From Chiridota heheva (taxonomy: Eukaryota; Echinodermata; Holothuroidea; Apodida; Chiridotidae): 64,000 bases of DNA. The DNA lies in assembly GCA_020152595.1 (NCBI GenBank), contig JAIGNY010003802.1, positions 132,501 through 196,500 of the forward strand. The letters are read 5' to 3'. A program made the position numbers and the translations under genes. Below, piece by piece: positions 11,730 to 62,150 of this stretch. Within the stretch, counting starts at the first letter, position 1. The number at the start of each line of letters is the position of its first letter. The notes beneath the pieces were generated by a model. It ran no database searches. It was given only the letters and a program-made list of their open reading frames with translations, and had not been told where the DNA came from.

Positions 11730-13371
11730 CAGGGGAGGACTGGCCAGTCCGTCCATCGGTCAATGTCCGATGCGCCCGGCCCGCCTTGGTACCGCCCGGC
11801 TTCAATATTCCAGGTATCAGGCTCAAGTGAGGCCCATATGGGGGAAAACTGGGCCACTTGGGCATGGGCCAACCCATATGGGTTAACCCATATGAGATCT
11901 GCTTGGGCTGGCCCATATGGGTACCGTATGGGGAAAATCTGGGCAAGCTCATGTGGGCTGCATGAGGAATGACCCATGTGGACAACATATGGGGAAACCT
12001 GGGCAAGCTCATGTGGGCTGCATGAGGGATGACCCAGTTTATGAGTAAAATATGGGCTATCCATTATGGGCATTCTGTGGAATTCATCTGGGGCCCAAGT
12101 GGGCATGCAATAATATAAGCCAGTCCATACGGGCCATCTCTTATTGGTAACACATATGGGGAAAACCTGGACAAGCTCATGTGGGCTGCATAAGGGATGA
12201 CCCATGTGGGGAACACAAGGGGAAACCTGGGCAAGCCCATGTGGGCGACAAATGACTGGTCCATGTGGGCAACATGTGGAAAAAACCTAGGCATGCCCAT
12301 GTGGGCAGTAAATGGGTCTGCCCATGTGGGTATCATATGGAAAATACCTGGGCAAGCCCTGTGAACAAAATGTGGGTTGGTCCATTTCAGTGTTATATGG
12401 GTAAAAACTGGGCAAGTCAATGTGGGCAGCATATGGGTCGGCCCATGTGGGTATCAAATGGGAAACACCTGGGCATGCCTATGTATGCAGCATATTGAAA
12501 ACACCCTGATGGCAGGAGAAAACTCTCAAGTAGGAGGAGTTTCGATGTTTGGTTTTTGAAAGAAACAATATCTTATTTGTTCTATCCGCAAGCAGTTTGC
12601 TCCCGTTTTCCATTCAATGTGGTTATTGGTGATCAGAACAGAGAAATAGCTTAAAAGATTTGGTGTTTTAATAAACAAATGAAGTGAATATATTTTAATT
12701 TTGGGATTACAATAAACCAATTATGGTGCAAGGATGATACAAAATGAATATATTTTTCAGATCTGGTATGACATTGATTAAGTTCTCCTCTCGCGTATAT
12801 AGATATGCAATTGATGAGGTGTATATGTATATGTGTATCTAGAAAGGTATTCTTTAAGCTCGATCCATTGAGGTCAGTTGATCATATATGGAACAACTGA
12901 CCTCAATGGATATACACAAATCTGGATCCCATGTGTTGCCATATGGAATGGCCCATATGGGCTAGCCCATATTATTGCATGCCCACCTGGACCCCGGATG
13001 AATCCCAAAGAATGTCCATAGGGGATAGCCCATATTCTACCCATAAACTGTTTGCCCATATGAAACCCATATTATGCCCACCTGGACCTCAGATGTTACC
13101 CACATGGGAATCTGGGTTGAATCATATGGGTCCCATATGATTCTTGGGTGCAGATTCCTAAGGGGCCCATATGGGATAACCCAGATGGGTCCCATATTTT
13201 TGCCCATAGTCAGCCCATATGGGCATGCTATCTGCGATTGTGTCTGATATCACAAAGCGTGACAAACCGCCGGAACGGTCCACCGGGACTTCAGACTTCC
13301 CCCGTTCAGTCCATATTGGGGATCCTTTGGGGCACCTCGACCGATGGAATTTGTACCCCAGTCCGCCCCTG
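11730..13371. mobile_element. hAT-like non-autonomous transposon with CCCATATGGG arrays
   Basis: The element is bounded by a perfect 8-bp direct repeat TCCATATC (11722-11729 and 13372-13379), the size of a hAT target-site duplication. Its ends are inverted: left CAGGGGAGGACTGG, right (reverse complement) CAGGGGCGGACTGG, fitting the CAG-start typical of hAT ends. No transposase frame is present. The interior is mostly degenerate ~60-bp tandem units rich in CCCATATGGG, GGGCAAGCTCATGTGGGC and related words, in two blocks (about 11830-12490 and 12940-13230) separated by unique sequence and a perfect hairpin. Long frames on both strands with repeated MGHP/HMG-type residues are artefacts of these units. 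Assignment to hAT rests on the duplication length and end sequence. Confidence 0.85.
12863..12911. repeat. Perfect 18-bp hairpin inside the hAT-like element
   Basis: ATCCATTGAGGTCAGTTG at 12863-12880 is exactly complementary in reverse to 12894-12911, around a 13-base loop. It sits just before the second CCCATATGGG block. Confidence 0.95.
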
Positions 13372-13499: not shown

Positions 13500-15530
13500 T
13501 GATATGACTGCTTTAAAGGAATATATTTTTTAATCAGAATTAACAACAGCTCTATCTGACAATGTATGTAATGCTGCTGATCAATTTAATGATATCCTAT
13601 CAAACCTTCTAGACAAACATGCTCCACCTGTTACTAAATCAGTTTCGCATAGCAGTCCTGGTTCACAGATATTGTAAATAAAATCAAGCATTGAACGCAG
13701 AAAGGCTGAACGAAAGTGGATAGCAAGTGGCCTTCGTACTAAATTTTGACAGGTTTAAAGAAGTCAGGAATAATTATAACAAAGAATTGTACTGTGCAAA
13801 ATGTCACTACTTCAACATTCAACCATATAACTAAATGTAGAAACGACTCTAAGTCTATGTTTCGTGCTATCAATGACATTCTACACAATAAGAAACCCAC
13901 CAAGTTACCTGACCATGACTGTCAGACTGTGCAACCACCTCGGTTTGCCTCATATTTTACTGAGTAAAATACAGAACATCAGAGATAACCTCACTTGTAA
14001 AAGTGCAGATATTCCTGTGGTGTCATTGAACTCTCACTCATCAGCTTAAGGGATTCATTTGCCATAGTTGATGAAATGGATATCATACAGATAATATCTA
14101 GCTCAGACAGCTCTTCATGTATTCTTGATCATTCCTCTACCTACCTGGTTGGTTAAATCTGTTGTGGACATTCTGCTGCCATCCATTACTGGAATTATGA
14201 ACAATTTACTCAGTTCCGGTGTTGTCCTAGATAGAGAGAGAGAGTTGAACACACAATTACAATGACGGGGTCGTCGCCTGCGTATTCGGTTATGATAGTA
14301 CAAATGCTATCACGAAACGCTTAATACGACCCGGACGAGAACACAGGTACGACGTTCGGACAGACATAGCATCGACAACCAAGTCAATGTCCACGGCCTT
14401 TGATAACCAGTTGTGGTGCACTGGCGTGTCTACCCACCCCAGGCTTGAACCCGGGGCCTCGTAGTCTGTAGACAGGCATGATAACCGCTACACCACAGTA
14501 GGTAGATGTTGTCCTAGATTCTCTGAAAGAGGCTGCAGCACTTTGAAAGAATTTGAAGGCAAGCTTAGCCTCCACAACATCCTAAAGAACGTCCGTTCTG
14601 TCAGTAACCATGCCACTCCTCTCAAAGGTGCTTTAGCGTGTAGCAGCAAAACAGCTGACAAAGTACATGTCAGAGTTTAATCTGCATGAACCTCTTCAAT
14701 CTGGGTTCAAATAATTTCATAGTGTTGAAACTGTTTTAATCAAGGTGAATAATGATCTACTGTGGATCATGGAGAGGCAAGGACACAATTCTTACACTCT
14801 TAGACCTGACCGCCTGAGTAGTGCTTTCGACACTATCGATCACAAAGTACTATTGCAGCGATTAGAAGATATCTTGGGTATACATGGTATCCACTCTCCT
14901 GGTTTGGATCCTTTCTCTGGGAAGATCTCAGCGGGTTCTTATTGATGGCAAATTTCAATCTCCACAACCATTGCATTTTGGTGTACCACAAGAACCAGTG
15001 CCTGGACCACTGCTATTTGCCATGTACATTCTGCCACTTGGACAACTGATCTGTCAGTATAATCTTGATCTGCATATGTAGGCTGATGACACACTGATTT
15101 ATGTTTCTGTTTATCCAAAACCTGTGGAAGGTGTCAATCTAGCAGTAACCAAATTAAAGGACTGTGTAAATATAATTCAAGATTTTATGTCACGAAACTT
15201 TCTTAAACTCTATGCCGATAAAACTGAAGTGATGGTACAGAGCGCAACTTGCGAAATTAAATTTGGCCTCTGTGACTATAGCACTGATGCTCGTATCAAA
15301 TTTAGCCGTTTGTAATCTTGGTGTGATGTTTGATACTGGCATGTCAATGTCTGCTCATGTGACCAATATTATCAAATCTGCCAATTACCACCTAATAAAT
15401 AGAAGTAGAGTGAGAAACTGAGAAAGATGCTTACTTTGGATGCAAATAAATTAGTCACTCACACTCTTGTATCTGCCAAATTAGATGTTAAATATAAGTT
15501 AAGCATTTAATTTGCATAAATACGTGAAAA
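13500..15530 (+). pseudogene. CR1/L2-like LINE relic (endonuclease tail, reverse transcriptase)
   Basis: Several plus-strand frames read in order as a decayed LINE ORF2. First come DKHAPPVTKSV and ERRKAERKWIASGL, the linker between endonuclease and RT. Then RAINDILHNKKPTKLP; then LSSAFDTIDHKVLLQRLE (RT motif A region), GVPQEPVPGPLLFAMYI (motif B region) and ADDTLIYVS (catalytic motif C, 15078-15110), preceded by an in-frame stop. NKLVTHTLVSAKLD follows near 15450. Stops and frameshifts separate the pieces. A SINE (14233-14506) interrupts the element with a 13-bp target duplication. FIYNGIKVWN near 15895-15925 could be part of the tail, displaced by a GC-rich insertion. RT would copy LINE RNA at a nicked target, but this copy cannot encode it. 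Confidence 0.85.
14233..14506 (-). mobile_element. tRNA-derived SINE, copy B, with 13-bp target duplication
   Basis: It lies between perfect direct repeats TGTTGTCCTAGAT (14220-14232 and 14507-14519). On the minus strand it starts CTACTGTGGTGTAGCGGT (A box at 14485-14495), has the B box GGGTTCAAGCC near 14443-14453, then a ~180-base body, and ends in a CTCTCT tail next to the duplication. It is inserted into the LINE relic at 13500-15530 and so is younger than it. Confidence 0.93.
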
Positions 15531-16043: not shown

Positions 16044-16535
16044 AAAGGATTACTTCAGGAGTCCTGCAAGTTTATCTTATTTGAAAGAGGACTTTAAAAG
16101 AAACAAAATGGCGAAGAAAGCATTTAAAAATCTTATTCCGTTAAGGAGATATTTTAAGGTTAAAGTTCGGTATCATTTGTGTAGAAACGACTGAGATCAG
16201 GCTAGTTGTGATGTTCTACCCTCAGATTCCTCAGTCTTGATGTATTCTATCATATTTTGTTCTGCGATTTTGTGGCTTATAAACCTTGGGATATGTCAAA
16301 AAATAGTAAAACTGAATCTAGGGAGGGTATTTATAACATACCACCTCAAGAAAGTTTGAAGAATAATGATTTAATAAGTGAAAGAATTAAATAAACTTTC
16401 TTTTTAAATACATAAAGACTTTGAGGAGTCTGAGGCTGTGACGTCACAAGTAGTCTAATTTCAGTCGTTTATACAGAAATAATACCAAACTTTAAACTTA
16501 AAGAACTCCTTAACAGCTTAACGGAATCAGATTTA
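16044..16535. mobile_element. Inverted-repeat MITE, copy 1 (right end truncated)
   Basis: It starts AAAGGATTACTTCAGGAG and then GAAAGAGGACTTTAAAAGAA. An inner block containing CTTATTCCGTTAAGGAGATA and GTAGAAACGACTGAGATCAG (near 16130-16200) returns in inverted, diverged form near 16435-16530 (TTTCAGTCGTTTATACAG, then CTTAACGGAATCAGATTT). The same arrangement occurs at 25780-26340 and 56850-57400. The outer right end is missing here. Confidence 0.85.
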
Positions 16536-24539: not shown

Positions 24540-27500
24540 CTTTAATTTAGTTTAGTTTAGTTTATTCTTACTCTGTCGACCCCTTCCGGGGTATGAGAGA
24601 TACAAGAACAAACAGATTAAAATGGTGGTACAAAATTAACATGAATAATTAAAAGTAAGTCTATACACAAAAGTTAAAAGTAGAACAGCTAGAAAAGAAT
24701 TTATACAAGATATATATACAATATGTACAGTTATGATGAATGGAACGATCTGTCGTATTATTACTTAGAAAGTTAACAAGTGAATTGTAATAAAAAGCTG
24801 TGGTCTCAACGAACGGATAAAAATCACAAAAAGTTCTCCATAATCACTTTAATACATATGCATAGCTTTTAAAGCGTACAGTTATCAGATGAGCTAAATA
24901 ATTCAATCATTTTAATTGTGTTCGGACGTTTGTAGAAGTAACTGTTCAGATATTTGGTTTTTTTAGTCTTGAAATAATTACAGACAAATAAGTAATGGAA
25001 TTCATCACCTAGTATATCATTCTGACATAGGTTACATGTTTTATCATTATCGTCACGGTGAATTTTTTTTCTGGTTATTTGGCAATTTAACATTTCCACA
25101 TCTGAATTTCGTCATGGATAATCTGTCATCGTGATTTACCTGTAGTAGATAACGTTCAAAATTTAAATTTGTTTGAAAATGATGTAAGTGTAACAAAGAC
25201 TATTGCTGTTCACATCACTTGACCAGTTCTGAAGGTCCATATCCTGTAGGCGACGATTAAGGGTGTTTCTTAACCAATTTAAATTGTGATTATCTTACAC
25301 CTGCCAAATGAAACTTAAGCCACAACGATCTAAATAAAATTCCTTTAACTTTGCACATCCACAATGATTTATAATCGTTGGTTAATGACTCAGTCATGGT
25401 TTTCATTAAACTGTAAAGCCTATACGAAAATTTTGATTGGATGCCAGTAACAAAGTGTACTCCAGAAGTTAATTAGTCTTTTTTCAAAGGTGCTATTTAA
25501 TTTGTATTTACCAACCTCACCATATAACATACAGTTGGCAGTCAGCTTATTAACCTTAAGAAGCCTTCTAAGAAAATTGTTATAAAAAACTTCAACATGA
25601 TCAATTTTCTCAATGCCCCATACCTCACAACCATAAAAGAGGATAGGACAAGCTCATCAAAAAGGTGGCATGTAAGATCAATGGGAATGTAGTTTAGCTG
25701 CTTTGGATAGGAGGGCCAACATATATCGTGTCTTGCTTGAGACACTTGTTTGCTGATGGCTTTACAAAAAATTGCCATTAAAGGATTAGTTCAGTGGTCA
25801 AACATGTCCAGTTTATATGAAAGAGGACTTCTAAAGAAACAGCATAGTGAAAAAAGCATCGCAAAATCTTATTCCGTTAAGGAAATATTCAAGTTTAAAG
25901 TTTGGTATCTGTAGAAACGACTGAGATCAGACTAGTTGTAATGTCATAGCCTCAGATACCTCAAAATCTTTATGTGTTTTAATGAAAATTTATTTAATTT
26001 TTCACTATTTAAACTATTTTCCCCCAAACTTTCTTCAGGTGGTATATTTTAAATATCCCTTCCTAGATTTACTTTTACTACTTTTTTCACGTATCTCATG
26101 GTTTTTAAGTCACAAAATCGTAGGACAAAACAATAGAATGCATAGAAATTTTGAGGAATTTGAGGATATGACATCACAATTAGTCTGATTTCAGTCGTTT
26201 CTACACAAATGTTACCAAATTTGACACTTGAATATTTCCTTAACGGAATAAGATTTGTGAATGCTTTCTTCACCATTTTGTTTCTTTTGGAGTCCCCTTT
26301 TATATAAGACGAATATGCTTGACCACTAAACTAATCCTTTGAAATTAAAAACAACCGCCAAATAGGTGAAGTCATCACACACACATCAGTTGTGTCACAC
26401 CAAAGTTGAATGAACGCTTGGTTCTTTTTTCAGCTCTGGAAAAATAACAATTTTGTTTTACTAGGATTGACACACAGGTGCCAAGTTTTACAATAATCAT
26501 GCTTAGCATTAAGAGCATTCTGCAGATCAGTTTTACTTTCAGATCAAATAACTGTGTCATCAGCATTAAGCAGAACATAAGTCTTAACCACATCTTGGTA
26601 CCATCAGTACTCAAATGCGTACCAATTGATAAAGTTTAACCCGGTGACATTACTTTTCCTCATAGATGATTCTAAATCATTGAGGAAAAACTAAAAATAA
26701 TATATAATAAAGGAGACAAATGTTCTCCTGGACGGACACCAATATTGCAACTGAAATAGGAAGATAATGAATTGTTGTATTTAATACAAGATTTAGCTTC
26801 AAAATACAGATTATAAATGACAGGTAAAAATTTACCATTTATACCGTTAGCAATTAGCTTTGACCAGAGTGCTGATCTGTTAATCATATTAAAGGCTTTT
26901 CTGTAGTCTGTGAAGGTACAGTATCTTTGCTTGCGATAGATATCAATAATACAATGGAGTGTAAAAATATGGTCTAATGTCAAATAATTTTTACGAAAAC
27001 CTGCTTGATTTTTACACATGGTACCGGTACTATCTAAAACCTTGTTAACTTATCATTTAATATGCAGTGAAGAATTTACAGATACAGCTCAGCAATGTGA
27101 CACCACGATAGTCATTGGGATCAGCAGGAAATCCCTTCTTTTTGTAGATCGGTATGATATACCCTAAACTCCACTTCTTTGGGATAATGCCAGTATCCAA
27201 AACAATATTAAAAAGACTGGTGATTAGGGTTAGAACTGAGTCAGGACAATTCTTAAGAAATTGATTGATTATCATATCATGACCACAAGCTTTGTTATTC
27301 TGGAGTTAATTCTAACTTTGCAGACCTCATCCAAAGTGATGGGGTTATTGATATATTCATTGATTAAGTGACTTATTTGTCTTGGATTAAAAGAAACGTC
27401 AAGATCAGCGTTTTCAATAGCAGAACTGTAATTAACATCTGAACCTAAACTGTTAAAATGATGAAAAAATATTGTCTATTCCAAGCATGTTAAACTGATC

Positions 27501-28875: not shown

Positions 28876-47694
<18,819 letters not shown>

Positions 47695-48910: not shown

Positions 48911-49137
48911 GCGGGTTTTGGCTGATCAGAGTGCAGGTATTTTCAATACAGTATGCAAAAATTATGATGTATGGATGGGAAGAGTACTCAAAATCTGTAT
49001 GTAATTCTTTTCAAAAATTCCTGAATTAAAGAAAACACTGAAAATGTCTTAAACAATTAGATGGTGATTGATGTCTGGTAAAGATTCAAGAACACTTGCA
49101 TCAGATTCATCTGATCTTCAAAGAATGTTTATAGGGA

Positions 49138-49477
49138 TTAACCCTTACTCTACCAGCACTGTTTTGAAAATGCGCCTGAGAGGCGGAGTCATAGACGGGG
49201 CACCCAAAACGGTGATAATATCGCTGCGTGGTAGAGTAAGGGTTAAGCACAGGGTAATTTATTGAAAGGTCCTCTGTCTTCGAGCAGCAAAGTCTGGCTC
49301 GATCCGCTTTAGTGACCCGCCCACCGGGACCATACTGCATACATTTTCGAGTTGGCATACTTGTCGCGGGTTGATTAACCCTTACTCTACCAGCACTTTT
49401 TTGAAAATATGCCTGGGAGGTGGAGTCAAAGACGGCACCCAAAATATGGATATTATCGCCTTGTGGTAAAGGGTTAA
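49138..49477. mobile_element. Pair of TTAA-flanked piggyBac-like MITEs, inverse of the intron 8 array
   Basis: Two elements, 49142-49242 and 49379-49473, start CCCTTACTCTACC after TTAA and end GGTAGAGTAAGGG (degraded to GGTAAAGGG in the second) before TTAA. Between them is the reverse complement of the spacer found in the 41752-42268 array. The whole unit is therefore the same composite in opposite orientation. Confidence 0.87.
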
Positions 49478-52059
49478 GGGAGCAATAGATTTGTGCAACA
49501 AAATAGAAAATTCTGCCCATTTATACATCACAAATTTGGCTTAAAATTTGAATTCAGATCTGAATATTAAGAAAGCTATAAAATATGTTATTAATCTGTT
49601 TGCTTTTTCCTTTTCGTTAACTTTAAGATCTACACATCGGATGGCATATCCATTGTGTAGTACTTCTCGTGTATATGGCATGAAGTAATACCCAGTTGTA
49701 GTTATCTGCTTATACATGTTCAAGAAGTGCAATTAATTCAGTGACTAAAAAGAAATTTCTTTCAAGTATCCGATGTAACTTTTTTCAATTGCATGTGTTT
49801 AGAATCTTTTTTCAATTGTATGAGTTAAGAATCTTTCTAGTTAATTTTCACAGCCCTAATTACATGTATGTTATCATTGGGACAATTTTGTTGTGTAATT
49901 AGGTTGTTGCAGATGCTTTGGTGTCAGCTAGAGTCACACTGAAGCAACGTTTTCCAAAATGTGATAAACTCGCATTCATTTCTGCACAGACTGATAGGAT
50001 TTTCACCTCTTCTTTGGTTAACGCTTTACATTTGGCAAATTTTGACTGCAAATTAGGCCTACACTGAAAAACGGTGCGGAGCATCGCAACTTGGTTAGAT
50101 GCAAATCTACAAGCAAATTATATGGGATTTGAATAACCTCTAACAGGTCATTAATCAGTAAACATCAGTAATCATTGAACATCGGCCAACAAGGAAGAAA
50201 AAGATGAGTATGGTCGTAAAAGGCCTGGAACGGAGGTATATGACAAATAACAAGAACAACTCATTATAAATTGCCCGTTTTAATAAACACTAAAGATTTT
50301 CATCCTTTCAAAGTGAATGTGTGTTTATGTAGGAAGTCACATTAAACAAATTTCAGTTCAGAGGAAAGTATAAAGTGATGTACTGCACATGATTTAGAGC
50401 AATTTATATTTGTTATAATGAAAAAATGCTGGATCAGATTATAAATCTTTTGCCATCATCTTTGTTAAAATTCATCACTTATTTAGATATTTGTACACAA
50501 AATGTGATTGTATGTAGAATTAAGTTGAACACCCCCCCCCTCGCCAAGTCATTTGTGTTGTTTAAACTGTATGTGCTCCTTAGTTTTATCCTAGCGTATA
50601 TCGTCACTGCACAGTGAGGTTAGCAAGCATGTGGTATGATTTTAGAAAGAAGAATTTGTGGCTTTGGTTATCACCTAATAAGGGTGAATGATGTCCCCAA
50701 AGAAAATGCACCTTTTGTTTACACTAATAATTGTGCACAATGGTTTTTTGAGTTGGACCATAATTTTGAAGATTTAGAGACATTTTGCTTGACTAATCAA
50801 TACTTAGGAGCTTGACCTGTAAAGCACAAACATTTGTGTGTTTATAAGTGTAGTCAGTCGTTATTGTTTAACTTGATGTGGTGGCCAGCTTTCTTGGCCA
50901 CATATTCTGAAATTGATTGGCTCAGAACTATCTGCATGCTTGATATTCCTTTTTAGTGGAAGATAGTACAATGGGAATATTAAATGAAATTTCAATGGAA
51001 CAAATTTAATGCTATATTTTGAGATGAGATGGCTGTACTATAGTAACTTCATTTGGTAGTTTTTTCAAAATGGAAAAATTGTCTGTCCTTTCATACAGCA
51101 CTGGCATATGTTGTTTTAAACATTGCTACTTCATTGTTACACCAATGTTGTTCGAGCTTCTTATTCCTGTTCATTTTGTTGCTACTTCATTGTTACACCA
51201 ACGTTGTTTGAGTATCATGTTCCTGTTCATTTTGCACTTGTCATGTTTCATTTTGCACTTATTATTTTCGTGCCAATTTGCACTTGTTATCCTTGTGCCA
51301 AATTGAGTTAGCTTGACAAGGTTGAAATTTATTATTGCACGTCAGCATGGGGGAAATCTTCCCTTTTTTACTTAGTATTGGTAGAAAATTGTCAAAATAG
51401 TGAATTGCTGGTGTTGCTCAAATCTTCATCCAACTTTCAGGTTAATGATCGTTTTCACCATTTGTGATATATATGTTTGGGTTATTTTGTTTTGTTTCTT
51501 GTAAGCCAAGAAATGATTTCTAAAAATGGTATTTAAAAAAACTAATAAAATTACACATAAGATAACTTTGCTTAACAAGTGCCCTTGTAGTTATGTGTAT
51601 CAAAATTTGTATGTGTATGTTGAAAAATGGATACAGTTGAAAAAACAATATTTCTTATTAAAAGCCTCAGTATTTTCTGTAAGAGTGCTTGGAAGAGAGA
51701 AACCATCGGATAGGATAGTTCAACTTGTAGATAATTTGTTAGTTTTAAGGGACTGGGAATCAGCGAAGATCAAGACCGAAATTATATTCATAGTATATAT
51801 AACTGGTCATTGTCTGAATTATTCATTGCTTGATGTTGATGTGAAAATTTTTTGAACAGAAACTCAACTTAGATTTGTGCAACTTTGAGTGATTAAAATG
51901 AATAAATAGTTCTGTTGATTATTGTTTGCAAATCACAAGAAAATAAATAAATACTGAATGTAAAATAAAGAACGTGGTATTTGTATTAAAATGTGATTTT
52001 GTATATCAAACTAAATGGGATTGCACTGCTCGTTTCTTTTGTAAATTTTGACTTTTGAT

Positions 52060-52295
52060 GTGGTGAAGTGAAAACAATACTTCTAACATGCGATGTGGTT
52101 GTCACGTGGAACGGCAAAAGGATCATATGTGATGGAGTTGTCAACTTATTTCGTGATGGTATAAACTTATTTAATGAAGGTGTCAACACATTTCATGAAG
52201 GTGTTAAGTTATATAATGAAGGTGTCAACACATATTATGAAGCTATCAACTTATTTGATCAAGGCATCAACTTATTTTATGAAGGTATTAGTTGA
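52060..52295. repeat. Left inverted arm of compound 21-bp array (foldback-like)
   Basis: GGCAAAAGGATCATATGTGA precedes about seven degenerate 21-base units of the type GAAGGTGTCAACACATTTCA, which is the reverse complement of the units in the large array downstream. Because 21 is a multiple of three, the plus strand reads as repeats like FHEGVN; this is not evidence of a gene. Confidence 0.85.
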
Positions 52296-52494
52296 GTGGT
52301 TCACCAGTGTGGTTTTCTTGACAAACTCCGGAGTTGTATCCTATTGACAAATTGCATGTTGTCCTCATAATGTTATACATATTGAATACTTCTGAAATAG
52401 CTGAGTAGTATTTTTGTTCTTTAGTGATTGGTTGTTGGCCCTAAATTAACATAATCAAATGCATGGATATCTGGAACTTCACATGTTGTTGTCC

Positions 52495-54095
52495 TAGGTC
52501 GCCAAAAGGACCACATTTGATGATGGTGTGGGAGCACACACCTGTTACAAAGTGATAATGACATGACAATCAAATCAGTTGATACCATCATCAGATAAAT
52601 TGACAAATGACTCAAGTTGATACCTTCATGATGTAAGTTGATACCTTCACCATTTAAGTTGACAACTTCATGAAATGTGTTGACACCTTCATGAAATGTG
52701 TTGACACCTTCATGAAATGTGTTGACACCTTCATGAAATGTGTTGACACCTTTATAAAATGTGTTGACACCTTCATGAAATGTGTTGACACCTTCATGAA
52801 ATGTGTTGACACCTTCATGAAATGTGTTGACACCTTCATATGATGTGTTGACACCTTCATATGATGTGTTGACACCTTCATGAAATGTGTTGACACCTTC
52901 ATGAAATGTGTTGACACCTTCATGAAATGTGTTGACACCTTCATGAAATGTGTTGACACCTTCATGAAATGTGTGTTGACACCTTCATGAAATGTGTTGA
53001 CACCTCCATGAAATGTGTTGACGCCTCCATCAAAATAAGTTGACGCCTCCATCAAAATAAGTTGACGCCTCCATCAAAATAAGTTGCGCCTCCATCAAAA
53101 TAAGTTAGCGCCTCCATCAAAATAAGTTAGCGCCTCCATCAAAATAAGTTGACGCCTCCATCAAAATAAGTTGACGCCTCCATCAAAATAAGTTGACGCC
53201 TCCATCAAAATAAGTTGACGCCTCCATCAAAATAAGTTGACGCCTCCATCAAAATAAGTTGACGCCTCCATCAAAATAAGTTGCGCCTCCATCAAAGTAA
53301 GTTGGCGCCTCCCATCAAAGTAAGTTAGCGCCTCCATCAAAATAAGTTGACGCCTCCATCAAAATAAGTTGCGCCTCCATCAAAATAAGTTGCGCCTCCA
53401 TCAAAATAAGTTGGCGCCTCCATCAAAATAAGTTGGCGCCTCCATCAAAATAAGTTGGCGCCTCCATCAAAATAAGTTGCGCCTCCATCAAAATAAGTTG
53501 CGCCTTCATCAAAATAAGTTGACGCTTCCATCAAAATAAGATGACGCCTCCATCAAAATAAGTTGACGCCTCCATCAAAATAAGTTGACGCCTCCATCAA
53601 AATAAGTTGACGCCTCCATCAAAATAAGTTGACGCCTCCATCAAAATAAGTTGACGCCTCCATCAAAATAAGTTGACGCCTCCATCAAAATAAGTTGACG
53701 CCTCCATCAAAATAAGTTGACGCCTCCATCAAAATAAGTTGACATCTCCATCAAAATAAGTTGACACCTCCATCAAAATAAGCCGACACCTCCATCAAAA
53801 TAAGCTGACACCTCCATCAAAATAAGCTGACACCTCCATCAAAATAAGTTGACACCTCCATCAAAATAAGCTGACACCTCCATCAAAATAAGCTGACACC
53901 TCCATCAAAATAAGCTGACACCTCCATCAAAATAAGCTGACACCTCCATCAAAATAAGCTGACACCTCCATCAAAATAAGCTGACACCTCCATCAAAATA
54001 AGCTGACACCTCCATCAAAATAAGCTGACACCTCCATCAAAATAAGCTGACACCTCCATCACATGTGGTCCATTTGGCATCCATAGTCACACACC
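52495..54095. repeat. Large minisatellite: 21-bp then 22-bp units
   Basis: About 18 copies of the 21-base GTTGACACCTTCATGAAATG(T) run from about 52625 to 53020, then about 47 copies of a 22-base unit, GTTGACGCCTCCATCAAAAT(AA), to 54060. The last ~17 units carry GCTGACACC, others GTTGCGCC or GTTAGCGCC, in homogenised blocks. The array is bounded on the left by GCCAAAAGGACCACATTTGA (about 52501) and on the right by the inverted TCACATGTGGTCCATTTGGC (about 54059-54078). Both match the sequence before the left arm. Confidence 0.95.
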
Positions 54096-54099
54096 CATT

Positions 54100-56720
54100 A
54101 TGACCAGAGCTCATTTTTGGAGCAAGTGCAAAGTCCAGTGCAATTATAGAAATATCCTTTTATCCCAGTAAGAATCAAGGGCCGGATCAATGACGCTGCT
54201 ATATGTTTGTTACAGGCCCACAGAACTCTAGGCGTACCACTGACTGTATACAATAAAAAGCATGATACGATGAAAATAAAGCTGTTGGAAATTTCCATAA
54301 ATCTGGTAGCTAATGTTTGATATCATTTGCAGCTTGAGTTTTATCACACAACAGCCATATCAAGCGATATGGGATCTTCCATGCATTTTGCCCCTGACAC
54401 CTTCAGAGGGTTGCGATCTTGGACCCTCTTTTATATGTATATAAAAAACATGAAGTTACGACAATAAAAGATGATGCGATTTAACACATCTCCCAATCAA
54501 CCCTGGTCCTGAATATCCTGTCAATTGTATAAAAGATAAATTCCTTTGAAATCTTAAACCCAGCAAATAAAATCCAAAAATTTCCTATAGAGGAAAAATG
54601 GGAAAATTTGTGTCACTTTTTGAAGATGCTCACAAGTGCCCTAGAAATCAGAGGTTTGAAACGTGAACAAATTTGAGATGTAGGTTAAATAAAAAGTACA
54701 TTGAATGTGTTAATTAGTCCGTCATTAATAAGATATAAGCATATAAATTAATTTGACAAAGGCATGGCTTTCAGAATAACTTCAAATTTTCCCCTTCACC
54801 TGTTTACAGAGGAACTTATTGAGCTGTTGTTCCTGGGAATAGATTTGAAAGGAATTTTTCTTGTGGTCAATAATGGCAATTGCCCATTGGCAGCAGCAGG
54901 TAGGGGGAAACTACCCACCTAAGATGTTTTCCTCTGATCTTTCCAGATGGTACATTAGGGAAATATTAACATAAATTGAAACAATTCTAGAAAAACGAGG
55001 TTAAAAAATTGATTAGTAGCAACCACAGGCATATGGGACTATTGTCAATTAAGAGGGGGGTTAAGCACTTTTGCCCGAAAATTCCCAGAAATGCATACAT
55101 GTTTGTACATGCATTCAAAATCTGAAGGTTAAGTTTTGTAGTTCCAGGCTGGATTCAGAGGGGCCACCCCCCTTAAATCCCCCCCTTCCCTCTCCTTCCC
55201 CGAGATTATTTAGATCACATCTTTTTTCTACCGTAAGATAATTCTTAGTTGCGCTTTTGAAAATTTATTTCAATGTTTGGGAAATCTCTTTCAATCTTTC
55301 ACAAATTTCCTTCATTCTCATGTTATTTTTGGAAATTTCTTTCATAATGGGGGCAAATTTTCTTTGATTTCATTCAATGTGTGAGAAATCACTGTTAACT
55401 TTGAATAATTTCCTTGTGATGCTTGTGTAATTTAAGAAATATTTCCTTTATTTTGGGGTGTTTTTTTTTTGTGGAAAATTTCCTTCATTTTGGGGCTGAT
55501 TGACATGCTAAATTGCTTTTATTTTTTGGGCCCTCATTGATGGCATGTCACTTGCATATGTGAGAAGCCTGTACAGTCAGACAGTAGAAGCCCTTACAGT
55601 CAGACAGTACGGATGTGGAGGTTGCGGAAGTACCACCTCGCTAAAACTTATCGTAAAGTTTGAAGTTTTGCCGACCAAGGGTATCAAAGGTAGAAAGAAT
55701 TGTGTGCAAAAGCATCCCCAATTTCCCAAACTACCTTTTCTACATAATGACATGTTACTAAACGGTCAAATCTCAATTAATTCGAAATTATAAATTTTAT
55801 GTGAGGTTTCCTGGAAAACAGTTGTTTTTTTGGACATATTTTACATTTTGGAGTCTGCCACACCCCAATCAAATTCTAACAGGAATACGCTTTCCCAGAT
55901 TTGAACTGTTTGTTTAGTCACACATCAAGTACGTAATAAAATCATCGATAATTCATTGATAACATCCTTGATAAAACTTTTTTTAGGCAAGGCGCTTTTT
56001 TATTCTACTTTTGTTTGAAATTATTAACGTACGCGTTAGACTTTTGCGATGCATACGATTTCCGCTCAAATTGAAACATTAAACAGTAAATTTCAACACT
56101 TAAAAAATGGCAAGATGGTCAGGGATGACAGCGATACAGCCACTGTCAGGTGGAGGAGCTTAAGAAGTAATTGGGCAAACTTCAACGAAAAGTTATAAAA
56201 TGGGCGAGTCGCATTAATTTCTTTTGTGTCAATGGACCACTTTTTTGGTTTCGGCCATTATGTTGGAAATAATGCAGAAATGTTTAATTGCACACAATTT
56301 CTTTTCTATAATCTTCTTTATTCAAAATAGCATTGGTTCTTCCCTTGATAGAGAGTTTTCAGTTTTATGACATTCTTTTTCCATTCTTTGATAAAAGTAG
56401 GGTTTTGCATTCACAAAAGGCTATGCCAGCTCTCATGTCGATGTGGAGAAAATTTGTAATTGATTGGCAGATTATATTTACACATGTACTGACAAGCAAA
56501 TCAAAAACTACAGCGGAACAAAATGACTTCGCTGGTATATAGCAGATTTTAACTGGTGTGTCAAATCATTTTCTTGTGATCTAGTTTTGTGTATTTTGCA
56601 ATGGAATTTTAATCGTAGGCCCATTTTTTAGCCCTGAATATGCAAAAATCGTAGAGCTTCAAGGGGCTTTTCCCCCTCACACCACTAGCTGGTCCCTCGC
56701 CCTCAAGCCGTTTGGCACAT
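54100..56720. other. No gene seen; GGAAATTTCC-type degenerate array at 55255-55500
   Basis: Loose units of GGGAAATTTCTTTCAATTT type at 55255-55500. Short frames such as 55545-55793 have no recognisable domain. Confidence 0.5.
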
Positions 56721-56728
56721 ATGGGGTG

Positions 56729-56842
56729 CCACCATCGGATGCAACCATCCGTGCCACCATTGGATGCCACCATCGGAAGCCACCATCGGATGCCACCATC
56801 GTATGCCACCATCGGAAGCCACCATCGGATGCCACCATCCGA
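56729..56842. repeat. 13-bp minisatellite (CCACCATCGGATG)
   Basis: Eight to nine copies of the 13-base unit CCACCATCGGATG/CCACCATCGGAAG with scattered changes, directly beside MITE copy 3. Confidence 0.93.
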
Positions 56843-56849
56843 TCAAGCA

Positions 56850-57400
56850 AGTCCATCTTGTATGAAAGAGGACTCCAAAAGAAACAAAATCGTGAAGAAA
56901 GGATTAAAAAATCTTATCCTGTTAAGGAGATATTTAAGTTTAAACTTTGAAATTATTTGTGTAGAAACGACTGAAATTAGACAGTTGTGATGTCATAGCC
57001 TCAGATTCCTCAAAGTCGTTATGTATTCTATCATATTTTGTCCTGTGATTTTAAGGCTTAAAAATCATGGGATATGTCAGAAAAGTAGTACAACTGAATC
57101 TAGTAAGGGTTTTTTTTAAATACCACCTAAAGAAAGTTTGAGGACAAGTAATTTAAATGGTAAAAGATTTAGATGAAGTTTTTTTTATATATATTAACAA
57201 TTGTAAAAAATATGATGCCAACTTTCCAGAGTAGACTTACTATACCAGTCATTTCTACACAGATAAGACAAGAGCTTTTAGCTTGAATATCTCCTAAACG
57301 GAATAAGATTTTTGAATGCTTTCTTAAATATTTTGTTACTTTTTAAGTCCTCTTTCATATAAGATAAACTTGCTTGACCATTGAACTAATCGATTAAGAG
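56850..57400. mobile_element. Inverted-repeat MITE, copy 3
   Basis: Same order as 25780-26340: GAAAGAGGACTCCAAAAGAA, then CTTATCCTGTTAAGGAGATA, then GTAGAAACGACTGAAATTAG, a central spacer, and the inverted right arm ending CTTGCTTGACCATTGAACTA. The left terminal sequence is replaced by the 13-bp minisatellite. Confidence 0.88.
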
Positions 57401-59699: not shown

Positions 59700-60235
59700 A
59701 AAGGCTCACTTAGGGTGGTCCCCATATTCGGTCTCTTTGGTGCAAACTGATGAGAGGACGTGACTTCCTGGATGGGACACCAGTCTTTGCAAACTCCCGA
59801 CAACGACGACGAGTGAACACACAATTACAATGACGGGGTCGTAGCCTGCGTATTCGGTTATGATAGTAACAATGCTATTACAAAACGCTTAATACGACCC
59901 AGATGAGAACACAGGTACGACGTACGGACAGACATAACATCGACAACCAAATCAATGTCCACAGCCTTTGATAACCCAGTTGTGGTGCACTGGCGTGTCT
60001 ACCCAACCCAGGCTTGAACCCACTGCCTCGTGGTCTGCAGACATGTATGATAACTGCTACACCACAGTTGGTAGACTTGCAAACTCCCTCTCCAGCTAGC
60101 ACTTATAAATGAGTCAACTGGAGCAATAGCAAATGAAGGGTCTTGCTCAAGGACACAATGTGGTACCCAATGGTAGAATCAAACTTGAATTCAAATCAAA
60201 AGATCTATCACTGAGCTACCACCATGTCCCTTCTT
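59700..60235 (-). mobile_element. V-core-like SINE interrupted by a second SINE
   Basis: On the minus strand it starts GGGACATGGTGGTAGCTCAG (A box). It then has a B-box-like GTTTGATTCTACC, then GTGTCCTTGAGCAAGACCCT (about 60140-60160) and, after the insertion at 59799-60076, GACTGGTGTCCCATCCAGGA. The order matches the element at 44113-44425. Confidence 0.8.
59799..60076 (-). mobile_element. tRNA-derived SINE, copy C, with 12-bp target duplication
   Basis: It is flanked by perfect TTGCAAACTCCC repeats (59787-59798 and 60077-60088) and inserted in the V-core SINE. Its body matches the copy at 14233-14506 nearly base for base (A box TGTGGTGTAGCAGTTATCAT, B box GGGTTCAAGCC). The 3' tail is a CGTCGTCG-type simple repeat, where the other copy has CTCTCT. 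Confidence 0.93.
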
Positions 60236-60639: not shown

Positions 60640-62150
60640 ATCAAAAAGCATTTCAGTTATAGTTTTTATGAAAATGATGAAAGATATCAAGTTTTGAAGA
60701 TTGTATGACATGCATCAAAAAAATAGAACTAACTATAAGGCAAAATCATCCTTTGAAGGTACTGTAAATACTGGTTAAGGTATAGTAGCAAAGTTGATCA
60801 ACATTTCTTGTAAAACCTTTGTAAATAAGTCAAAATAAGCCAAAGTACTAAAATGTTAGTATAATTATCATTTCAGTTACAATTTTAAAGGTAAATGCTG
60901 ATATGAGATATTACATTTGCATGATCTATGTAATGCATCAAAACATAATATAACACAAAGTTTTCAGATTTCTATATATCAATTAAATTAAATTACCTCT
61001 ACACCCACTTTCTAAACATCTCTTGCAAGAAATCTATAATTTGCAAACAATACACTTAGTATTAAAATGCTAGTACAAGAATCATTTCAGTTTTATGGCA
61101 AATGATGACAGATATTACATTTGCATGATCTATGTAATGCATCAAAACATAATATAACACAAAGTTTTCAGATTTCTATATATCAATTAAATTAAATTAC
61201 CTCTACACCCACTTTCTAAACATCTCTTGCAAGAAATCTATAATTTGCAAACAATACACTTAGTATTAAAATGCTAGTACAAGAATCATTTCAGTTTTAT
61301 GGCAAATAATGACAGATATTACATTTGCATGATCTATGTAATGTATCTAAAACAAAGGATTACACAAGCAGTTTTCAGATTTCTATATATCAATTAAATT
61401 ACCTCTACACTCACTTTCTAAACATCTCTTGCAAAAATCCTTAATTTGCAAACAATACACTTAGTATCAAAATGCTAGTACAAGAATAATTTCAGTTTTA
61501 AGGCAAATAATGACAGATATTACATTTGCATGATCTATGTAATGCATCTAAAACAAAGGATTATACAAACAGTTTTCAGATTTCTATATATCAATTAAAT
61601 TACCTCTACACTCACTTTCTAAACATCTCTTGCAAGAAATCCTTAATTTGCAAACAATACACTTAGTATTAAAATGCTAGTACAAGAATAATTTCAGTTT
61701 TATGGCAAATAATGACAGATATTACATTTGCATGATCTATGTAATGCATCTAAAACAAAGGATTACACAAACAGTTTTCAGATTTCTATACATCAATTAA
61801 AGGAATCCTACTCTCACTTACTGACCTTCGAGGCAAATCATGATCCTTTTAAGCTATTATAAATGTTGGTTTAGTTATGACAAAGTTTCTAAACATCTCT
61901 TGCAAGAAATCCATAATTTGCAAACAATGCACTTAGTATTAAAATGCTAGTACAAGAATAATTTCAGTTTTAAGGCAAATGATGACAGATATTACATTTG
62001 CATTATCTATGTGATGCATCTAAATAAAGAATTACACAAGTAGTTTTCAGATTTTTATACCAATTAAAGGAATCCTACTTTTACTCACTGACCTACGAGG
62101 CTAACCATGATCCTTTTAAGTACTATAAATGTTGGTCAATGTAAGTTACT
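60640..62150. repeat. ~204-bp tandem repeat beside the P450 3' end
   Basis: CATTTGCATGATCTATGTAA recurs at 60914, 61118, 61322, 61523 and 61725 (spacing 201-204), then at 61995 (spacing 270). The internal units are highly alike. The outer units (60640-60880 and 61800-62110) also contain ATGATCCTTTTAAG-like sequence and are longer, suggesting an ancestral ~255-270-bp unit and later amplification of a shortened form. Confidence 0.93.

Follow-up and report, generated by a model that had tools for sequence, protein, structure and literature searches.

The question raised by this locus is whether two tandem arrays of a 21/22-bp unit, lying between 52113 and 54078 of the window (the whole 64-kb stretch of DNA that was analysed), are the arms of a foldback transposon or an ordinary minisatellite. 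With modest confidence we favour a transposon: the locus is probably the remnant of an old, non-autonomous, non-coding foldback-like DNA transposon, one arm of which was amplified after insertion.

The left, short array (52132–52290, + strand) contains ~7.5 units of 21 bp according to Tandem Repeats Finder, which reports periods of 21 and 42 with 72–77% matches; its seven full units have an average mutual score of 73%. The same program places the long array at 52614–54067, with period 21 at 52616–53078 and period 22 at 52975–54061. By a unit matrix, the long array begins on its inner side with a unit at 52571–52591, which is itself in the matrix and owes its score to that construction; including it, the array occupies 52571–54059 and holds roughly 68 units. 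The two arrays have opposite orientation (52124–52288 aligns inverted and ungapped with 52620–52784 at 79% identity over 165 bp), and a BLAST search of 52113–52290 against the rest of the window returns the inverted array match at E=1.6e-37. The arms are very unequal in length, ~0.16 kb on the left vs. 1.49 kb on the right. Thus, the first-pass annotation, which described a short and a long array with units in opposite orientation and asymmetric arms, is borne out on all of these points; it correctly recognized the long array but started it at ~52625, ~50 bp beyond the beginning of its innermost unit. Because a single unit is reused in tandem arrays, inverted matches look long, and the independent evidence therefore consists of the unit, the border, and the phase between them.

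The long array (− strand) is not uniform. Reading inward from its border, a 22-bp block of GTGTCAGC is followed by a 22-bp block of GCGTCAAC mixed with 21-bp deletion variants, then by a 21-bp block of 17 units, and lastly by a few diverged units. With approximate boundaries, the outer 22-bp block (CTCCATCAAAATAAG type) occupies 53031–54059, with the GCTGACACC variant in 11 of the 13 outermost units; the inner 21-bp block (TTCATGAAATGTGTTGACACC type) occupies 52661–53030; and the innermost, non-homogenized units lie at 52571–52660. For comparisons between units, the right array was cut by script into 69 pieces; two of these, 3 and 38 nt long, were discarded, leaving 67 of 17–24 nt. The alignment score per base averages 0.943 between neighboring units, compared with a maximum of 0.847 in 2000 permutations, and the score falls with distance, from 0.94 between neighbors to 0.88 at lag 8, 0.78 at lag 20, and 0.68 (0.676) at lag 50. 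The block-wise homogenization proposed in the first-pass annotation is thereby upheld. Exact copies of the 21-bp inner type ATGAAGGTGTCAACACATTTC number one in the left arm and 10 among the 67 right units. Three of the seven left units find their best right match at the diverged inner end of the array (units 65 and 67 of 67) and two in the 21-bp block (51 and 60); for the remaining two, the best match is junction unit 49 in one case and a tie among 17 right units, the first being unit 16, in the other. This pattern fits local amplification, after the arms had formed, in the portion of the right arm near its border; these data do not distinguish replication slippage from unequal exchange.

Each array adjoins a short border sequence, which is present in three copies: a left core at 52113–52131 (+ strand; 22-mer site 52113–52134, three mismatches to the consensus), a middle core with the first ~10 nt of a unit at 52501–52529 (+ strand; 22-mer site 52501–52522, one mismatch), and an inverted right core at 54060–54078 (− strand; 22-mer site 54057–54078, one mismatch). 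The consensus was built from these three copies, and their low mismatch counts are partly by construction. The same border had been annotated in direct orientation at ~52105 and ~52501 and inverted at ~54060; the three copies are confirmed, with the left one beginning at 52113. Allowing as many as 6 mismatches in 22 reveals no further border site in the 64 kb; at this level, 50 Markov sequences contain on average 0.34 sites (0.02 at up to five mismatches and 0 at up to four). A 16-mer from the middle copy, at up to three mismatches, finds the same three sites only, where 0.66 are expected and three or more appear in 4 of 100 shuffles. The middle and right borders are 86% identical over 29 bp (E=1.6e-4), first unit nucleotides included; when queried alone, 54061–54160, which has the right core without the unit start, matches nothing in the window at E 0.1. 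In view of the missing core-only match and the shuffles with three 16-mer sites, the cores, which by themselves lack the length for significance, are not strong evidence alone. Border and array together are statistically strong: against 300 mononucleotide shuffles, local alignment scores are 72 for left–right (shuffle maximum 49.5), 46 for middle–right (36.5), and 43 for left–middle (41.5).

The junction between border and array is the same throughout. Toward the interior, the last nucleotides of the left core are CATATGTG and those of the right core CACATGTG, and each core is directly followed by ATGGAG-TGTCA-CTTATTT, which is the unit in the same phase; the middle border continues into the first ten unit nucleotides (ATGATGGTGT). 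All three borders therefore run straight into the start of a unit in a common phase. Since the border is directly joined to an in-phase unit, border and array can be regarded as one composite inverted repeat that is able to fold back.

Similarity beyond the cores is weak, depends on scoring, and reaches ~20–40 bp at most. A 59-bp inverted match joins 52093–52151 and 54040–54098 at 75% identity, and outward alignment anchored at the cores suggests a possible, weak outer extension of the left border of ~20 bp (52093–52112, + strand). Over 20–40 bp, loose scoring gives P=0.004–0.005 for left–middle and P=0.005–0.012 for left–right, and strict scoring gives P=0.005–0.017 and 0.035–0.047, respectively, with no score for middle–right. 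For 40-bp flanks in particular, P is 0.004 (left–middle), 0.010 (left–right), and 0.033 (middle–right) under loose scoring and 0.005, 0.047, and none under strict scoring. By window count, left–middle reaches 13 of 20 at offset 10, the sole pair above the 99% null; next to the core, left–right has 11 of 20 and middle–right 9 of 20, with a null at the next offset of 10 (95%) and 12 (99%). Local alignment of the 103-bp outer flanks yields no signal, 263, 161, and 374 of 500 shuffles being equally good. No terminal repeat longer than ~20–40 bp is claimed. An alignment of left and middle flanks over ~140–150 bp, obtained under one loose-gap setting, was set aside (control P=0.02; 0.28–0.38 for the other pairs).

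In layout, the locus resembles a foldback transposon, as the first-pass annotation had proposed: it has long inverted arms built of short tandem repeats, unequal in length and separated by a spacer, and the terminal border is inverted at the two ends (52113 on the + strand and 54078 on the − strand), with an extra direct copy at 52501. Nor do the arrays occur alone without borders, the finding that was to mark an ordinary minisatellite; they have shared borders and an inverted partner. Folded as a single strand, 52113–52800 forms 129 pairs between the arms at a predicted energy of −131.6 kcal/mol (15 shuffles: −63.3 ± 5.0 kcal/mol); the hairpin potential in this model is as for any inverted repeat. 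The proposal is partly supported: the layout holds, but neither a target-site duplication nor, within the 64 kb, a second copy of the element was found. Around the left–right and middle–right ends, the best exact repeat is 5 bp and within chance by random-region controls (P=0.79 and 0.73, respectively). When matching ends are also required, the left–right pair yields repeats of 3 and 5 bp only, with no 6–10-bp duplication, and the middle–right pair yields one 4-bp and one 6-bp repeat; the positions of these repeats are unrelated to the borders, the one exception being GGC, which trivially overlaps the border cores. Target-site duplications can be lost from an old element, so that the absence of one here lowers the case for membership among foldback transposons and leaves the resemblance as it is. 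The direct border at 52501 has no place in a simple foldback and suggests that the element is compound or rearranged; this third border is not explained by a single simple insertion.

The same end test does detect an insertion elsewhere in the window, which makes the missing duplication at 52113–54078 more telling. A survey of inverted repeats identified an element at 11730–13371 with ends CAGGGGAGGACTGG and CAGGGGCGGACTGG (one mismatch in 14; CAGGGG(A/C)GGACTGG), for which the window has only these two sites at up to two mismatches. An exact 8-bp duplication, TCCATATC, lies outside both ends, and the test was passed by 0 of 100 random region pairs. Within the element, inverted arms at 11973–12155 and 12931–13108 are 76.6% identical over 184 bp, and a tandem array of 60-bp period lies on the left (12153–12495), with units that also match within 11904–12072. 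The right half matches this left array in only two inverted 19-bp pieces (E 0.003), and no comparable array was found in it even at low score; the element thus has inverted arms and a one-sided array, rather than being a symmetric array foldback. An element with inverted arms and an array has thus been inserted in this DNA. Its CAGGG ends, like the 8-bp duplication, are reminiscent of hAT elements, to which we presume it is related.

The main alternative is that the locus is an ordinary minisatellite, whereby a short array and its flank were locally duplicated in inverted orientation, a fragment of the border was duplicated once more in direct orientation, and one array then expanded by slippage, all without transposition. 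We consider this unlikely, although it is a serious possibility. It is consistent with the lack of a target-site duplication at the left–right or middle–right ends, with the restriction of border and unit to one place within 64 kb (no second locus with either was found in the window, and no array unit elsewhere in it exceeds 12.1 bits of a possible 28.8), with the location of all three border copies within 2 kb, and with unit similarity that declines with distance, as is typical when local slippage or unequal exchange is at work. However, the three borders share an inner limit and unit phase, and their similarity fades outside within ~20–40 bp, which is more module-like than would be expected of arbitrary duplication breakpoints; moreover, the third, direct copy is not produced by a simple inverted duplication.

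Two further explanations are much less probable. The locus could combine two elements or end fragments of one family, namely a left-arm fragment (52113–52290) and a nearly one-armed element (52501–54078), a very unlikely arrangement. The middle border with its half unit, a short loop of ~40 bp to the long array (52530–52570), the inverted array, and the inverted border do constitute a minimal one-armed foldback by themselves, and the spacer (52291–52500) has no unit relics above the window background by the unit matrix, and a BLAST search at E 0.1 pairs it with nothing else in the window. Yet this would require two insertions 0.4 kb apart. In addition, the best match of six of the seven left units falls among the inner right units (49 to 67 of 67), a pattern that could arise from two arms of a single element, although two elements of the same family would also look alike. 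A non-autonomous Helentron (HINE-like), with central tandem repeats between two modules bearing subterminal inverted repeats, is likewise highly improbable: short inverted borders around arrays and a missing target-site duplication fit the description of such elements in oysters (PMC7492417), but here there are two arrays in opposite orientation instead of one central array in one orientation, and beyond the right subterminal repeat, where a short palindrome would be expected, none is evident (the 72 bp beyond the right border form short stems, with a fold z=−1.48 and 14 of 200 shuffles as good).

A coding reading of the 21-bp block (ORF 52984–52424, minus strand, heptad GVNTFHE) was rejected because the 22-bp block shifts the frame with every unit. 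In Pfam, this ORF has only sub-threshold matches, on repetitive sequence, to CHORD (24.2 bits; cut-off 24.6) and IFT20 (20.1; cut-off 27), and ORF 53073–52657 in the long array and the neighboring ORF 51517–51852 have none; with no Pfam family at cut-off for the two scanned long-array ORFs, there is no support for coding. None of 4227 RNA families was found in the window at gathering scores. Literature searches found no mention of six repeat and border strings, and exact repeat and border patterns had 0 matches in viral and prokaryote collections, which are uninformative for animal-type sequence.

The surrounding DNA includes exons of a PP2A scaffold subunit at 39.6 kb (Pfam PPP2R1A-like), 42.4 kb (Pfam HEAT; the translation agrees by eye with a PP2A chain), and 45.3 kb (Pfam HEAT and a PDB match, E=1.9e-38), as well as a further exon-like piece near 46.8 kb recognized by motif. 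These exons suggest that the DNA is of animal type. The foldback-like locus is ~5.3 kb beyond the 46.8-kb piece, in the last intron or downstream of the gene. Other repeats are present in the window. A ~0.5-kb repeat in three copies (16044–16514, 25778–26340, and 56843–57397), with inverted arms of 109, 200, and 132 bp (81–82%), constitutes a MITE-like family with long inverted repeats, and its third copy directly adjoins a 13-bp tandem array (56727–56843). A dispersed direct repeat (14246–14506 and 59814–60075) is 91.6% identical over 262 bp; no listed dispersed pair longer than 100 bp has a higher identity. A ~234 bp repeat forms a tandem pair with an inverted copy ~7 kb away (41776–42272 and 49136–49478; 82–83%), and a 204-bp tandem array (60906–61801) has 4.4 copies with 93% matches. 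A reverse transcriptase fragment at 26675–27049 (− strand; Pfam RVT_1, E=1.4e-9) is probably from a decayed retroelement.

For the favored foldback-like remnant, we infer past movement of the element and an outside source of its transposase. Its original ends would have been composite terminal inverted repeats, each made of a ~20–40 bp border and a tandem array of the 21-bp unit, and a transposase supplied in trans may have recognized the border and perhaps the units, by analogy with Galileo. After insertion, the left arm would have decayed, and the right arm would have been amplified in successive blocks, by replication slippage or unequal exchange, as the 22-bp variant spread at its end nearest the border. 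We take the additional direct border at 52501 to be a remnant end from a second copy, either nested or rearranged. A bolder proposal, which we regard as rather doubtful, is that the locus represents a foldback family that has not been described before and whose composite ends are made with 21/22-bp units. One arm would be turning into a satellite-like array in place and the other retaining ancestral units, so that this one locus would capture the transition from transposon end to satellite. If this is true, the element at 11730–13371, which also has a one-sided array, would suggest recurrent one-sided array growth inside transposons in this genome. If other copies confirm the locus as an element, a foldback-type element with very short units would be added beyond the well-studied Drosophila examples. 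The present evidence makes a modest case at the level of one locus.

Among known systems, sea urchin TU elements, which the first-pass annotation named, have long inverted arms with short tandem repeats, and on this general description they share with our locus inverted arms of short tandem repeats. The oyster Cg_HINE/Helentron elements have a central array of one or, exceptionally, two consecutive repeat types (PMC7492417); they are comparable in having tandem arrays between modules with short inverted repeats and no target-site duplication, and differ in that the array is in a single orientation and is accompanied by a 3′ palindrome (PMC7492417). Galileo, of the P superfamily, is described as having long inverted ends, with internal tandem repeats in some copies that are unequal between the ends and can contain transposase binding sites (PMC4168063, PMC3688188). 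Inverted ends with tandem repeats that differ in number are also found here, unlike the ~140 bp repeat unit of the one D. willistoni copy with tandem repeats, the 7–8-bp duplications, and the transposase-coding segment of some Galileo copies (PMC4168063, PMC3688188). The terminal inverted repeat of Tetris in Drosophila virilis combines an external flanking domain with variable tandem repeats, and the internal repeats are reported as seeds of satellite-like arrays (PMC4079207). Border and variable tandem repeats likewise form a terminal inverted repeat at our locus, with a 21/22-bp unit in place of one of ~220 bp and none of the 8–10 bp target-site duplications of complete Tetris copies (PMC4079207); if confirmed, the growth of one arm into a minisatellite would follow the transposon-to-satellite route proposed for Tetris. 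FB elements consist of mirrored blocks of 27–31 bp tandem repeats that flank a middle region, with inverted end sequences of 467–479 bp that are at least 97% identical (PMC7642927). By comparison, our locus has a ~20–40 bp border, arms that are 79% identical, a 21/22-bp unit, a third border, and no duplication. The likeness to FB is one of layout, in that mirrored short-repeat blocks surround a middle region, the sides are unequal, and the ends are inverted (PMC7642927); unequal arms are not unusual in this respect, given FB elements with two blocks on one side and seven or eight on the other (PMC7642927) and the Galileo copy with unequal repeats (PMC4168063).
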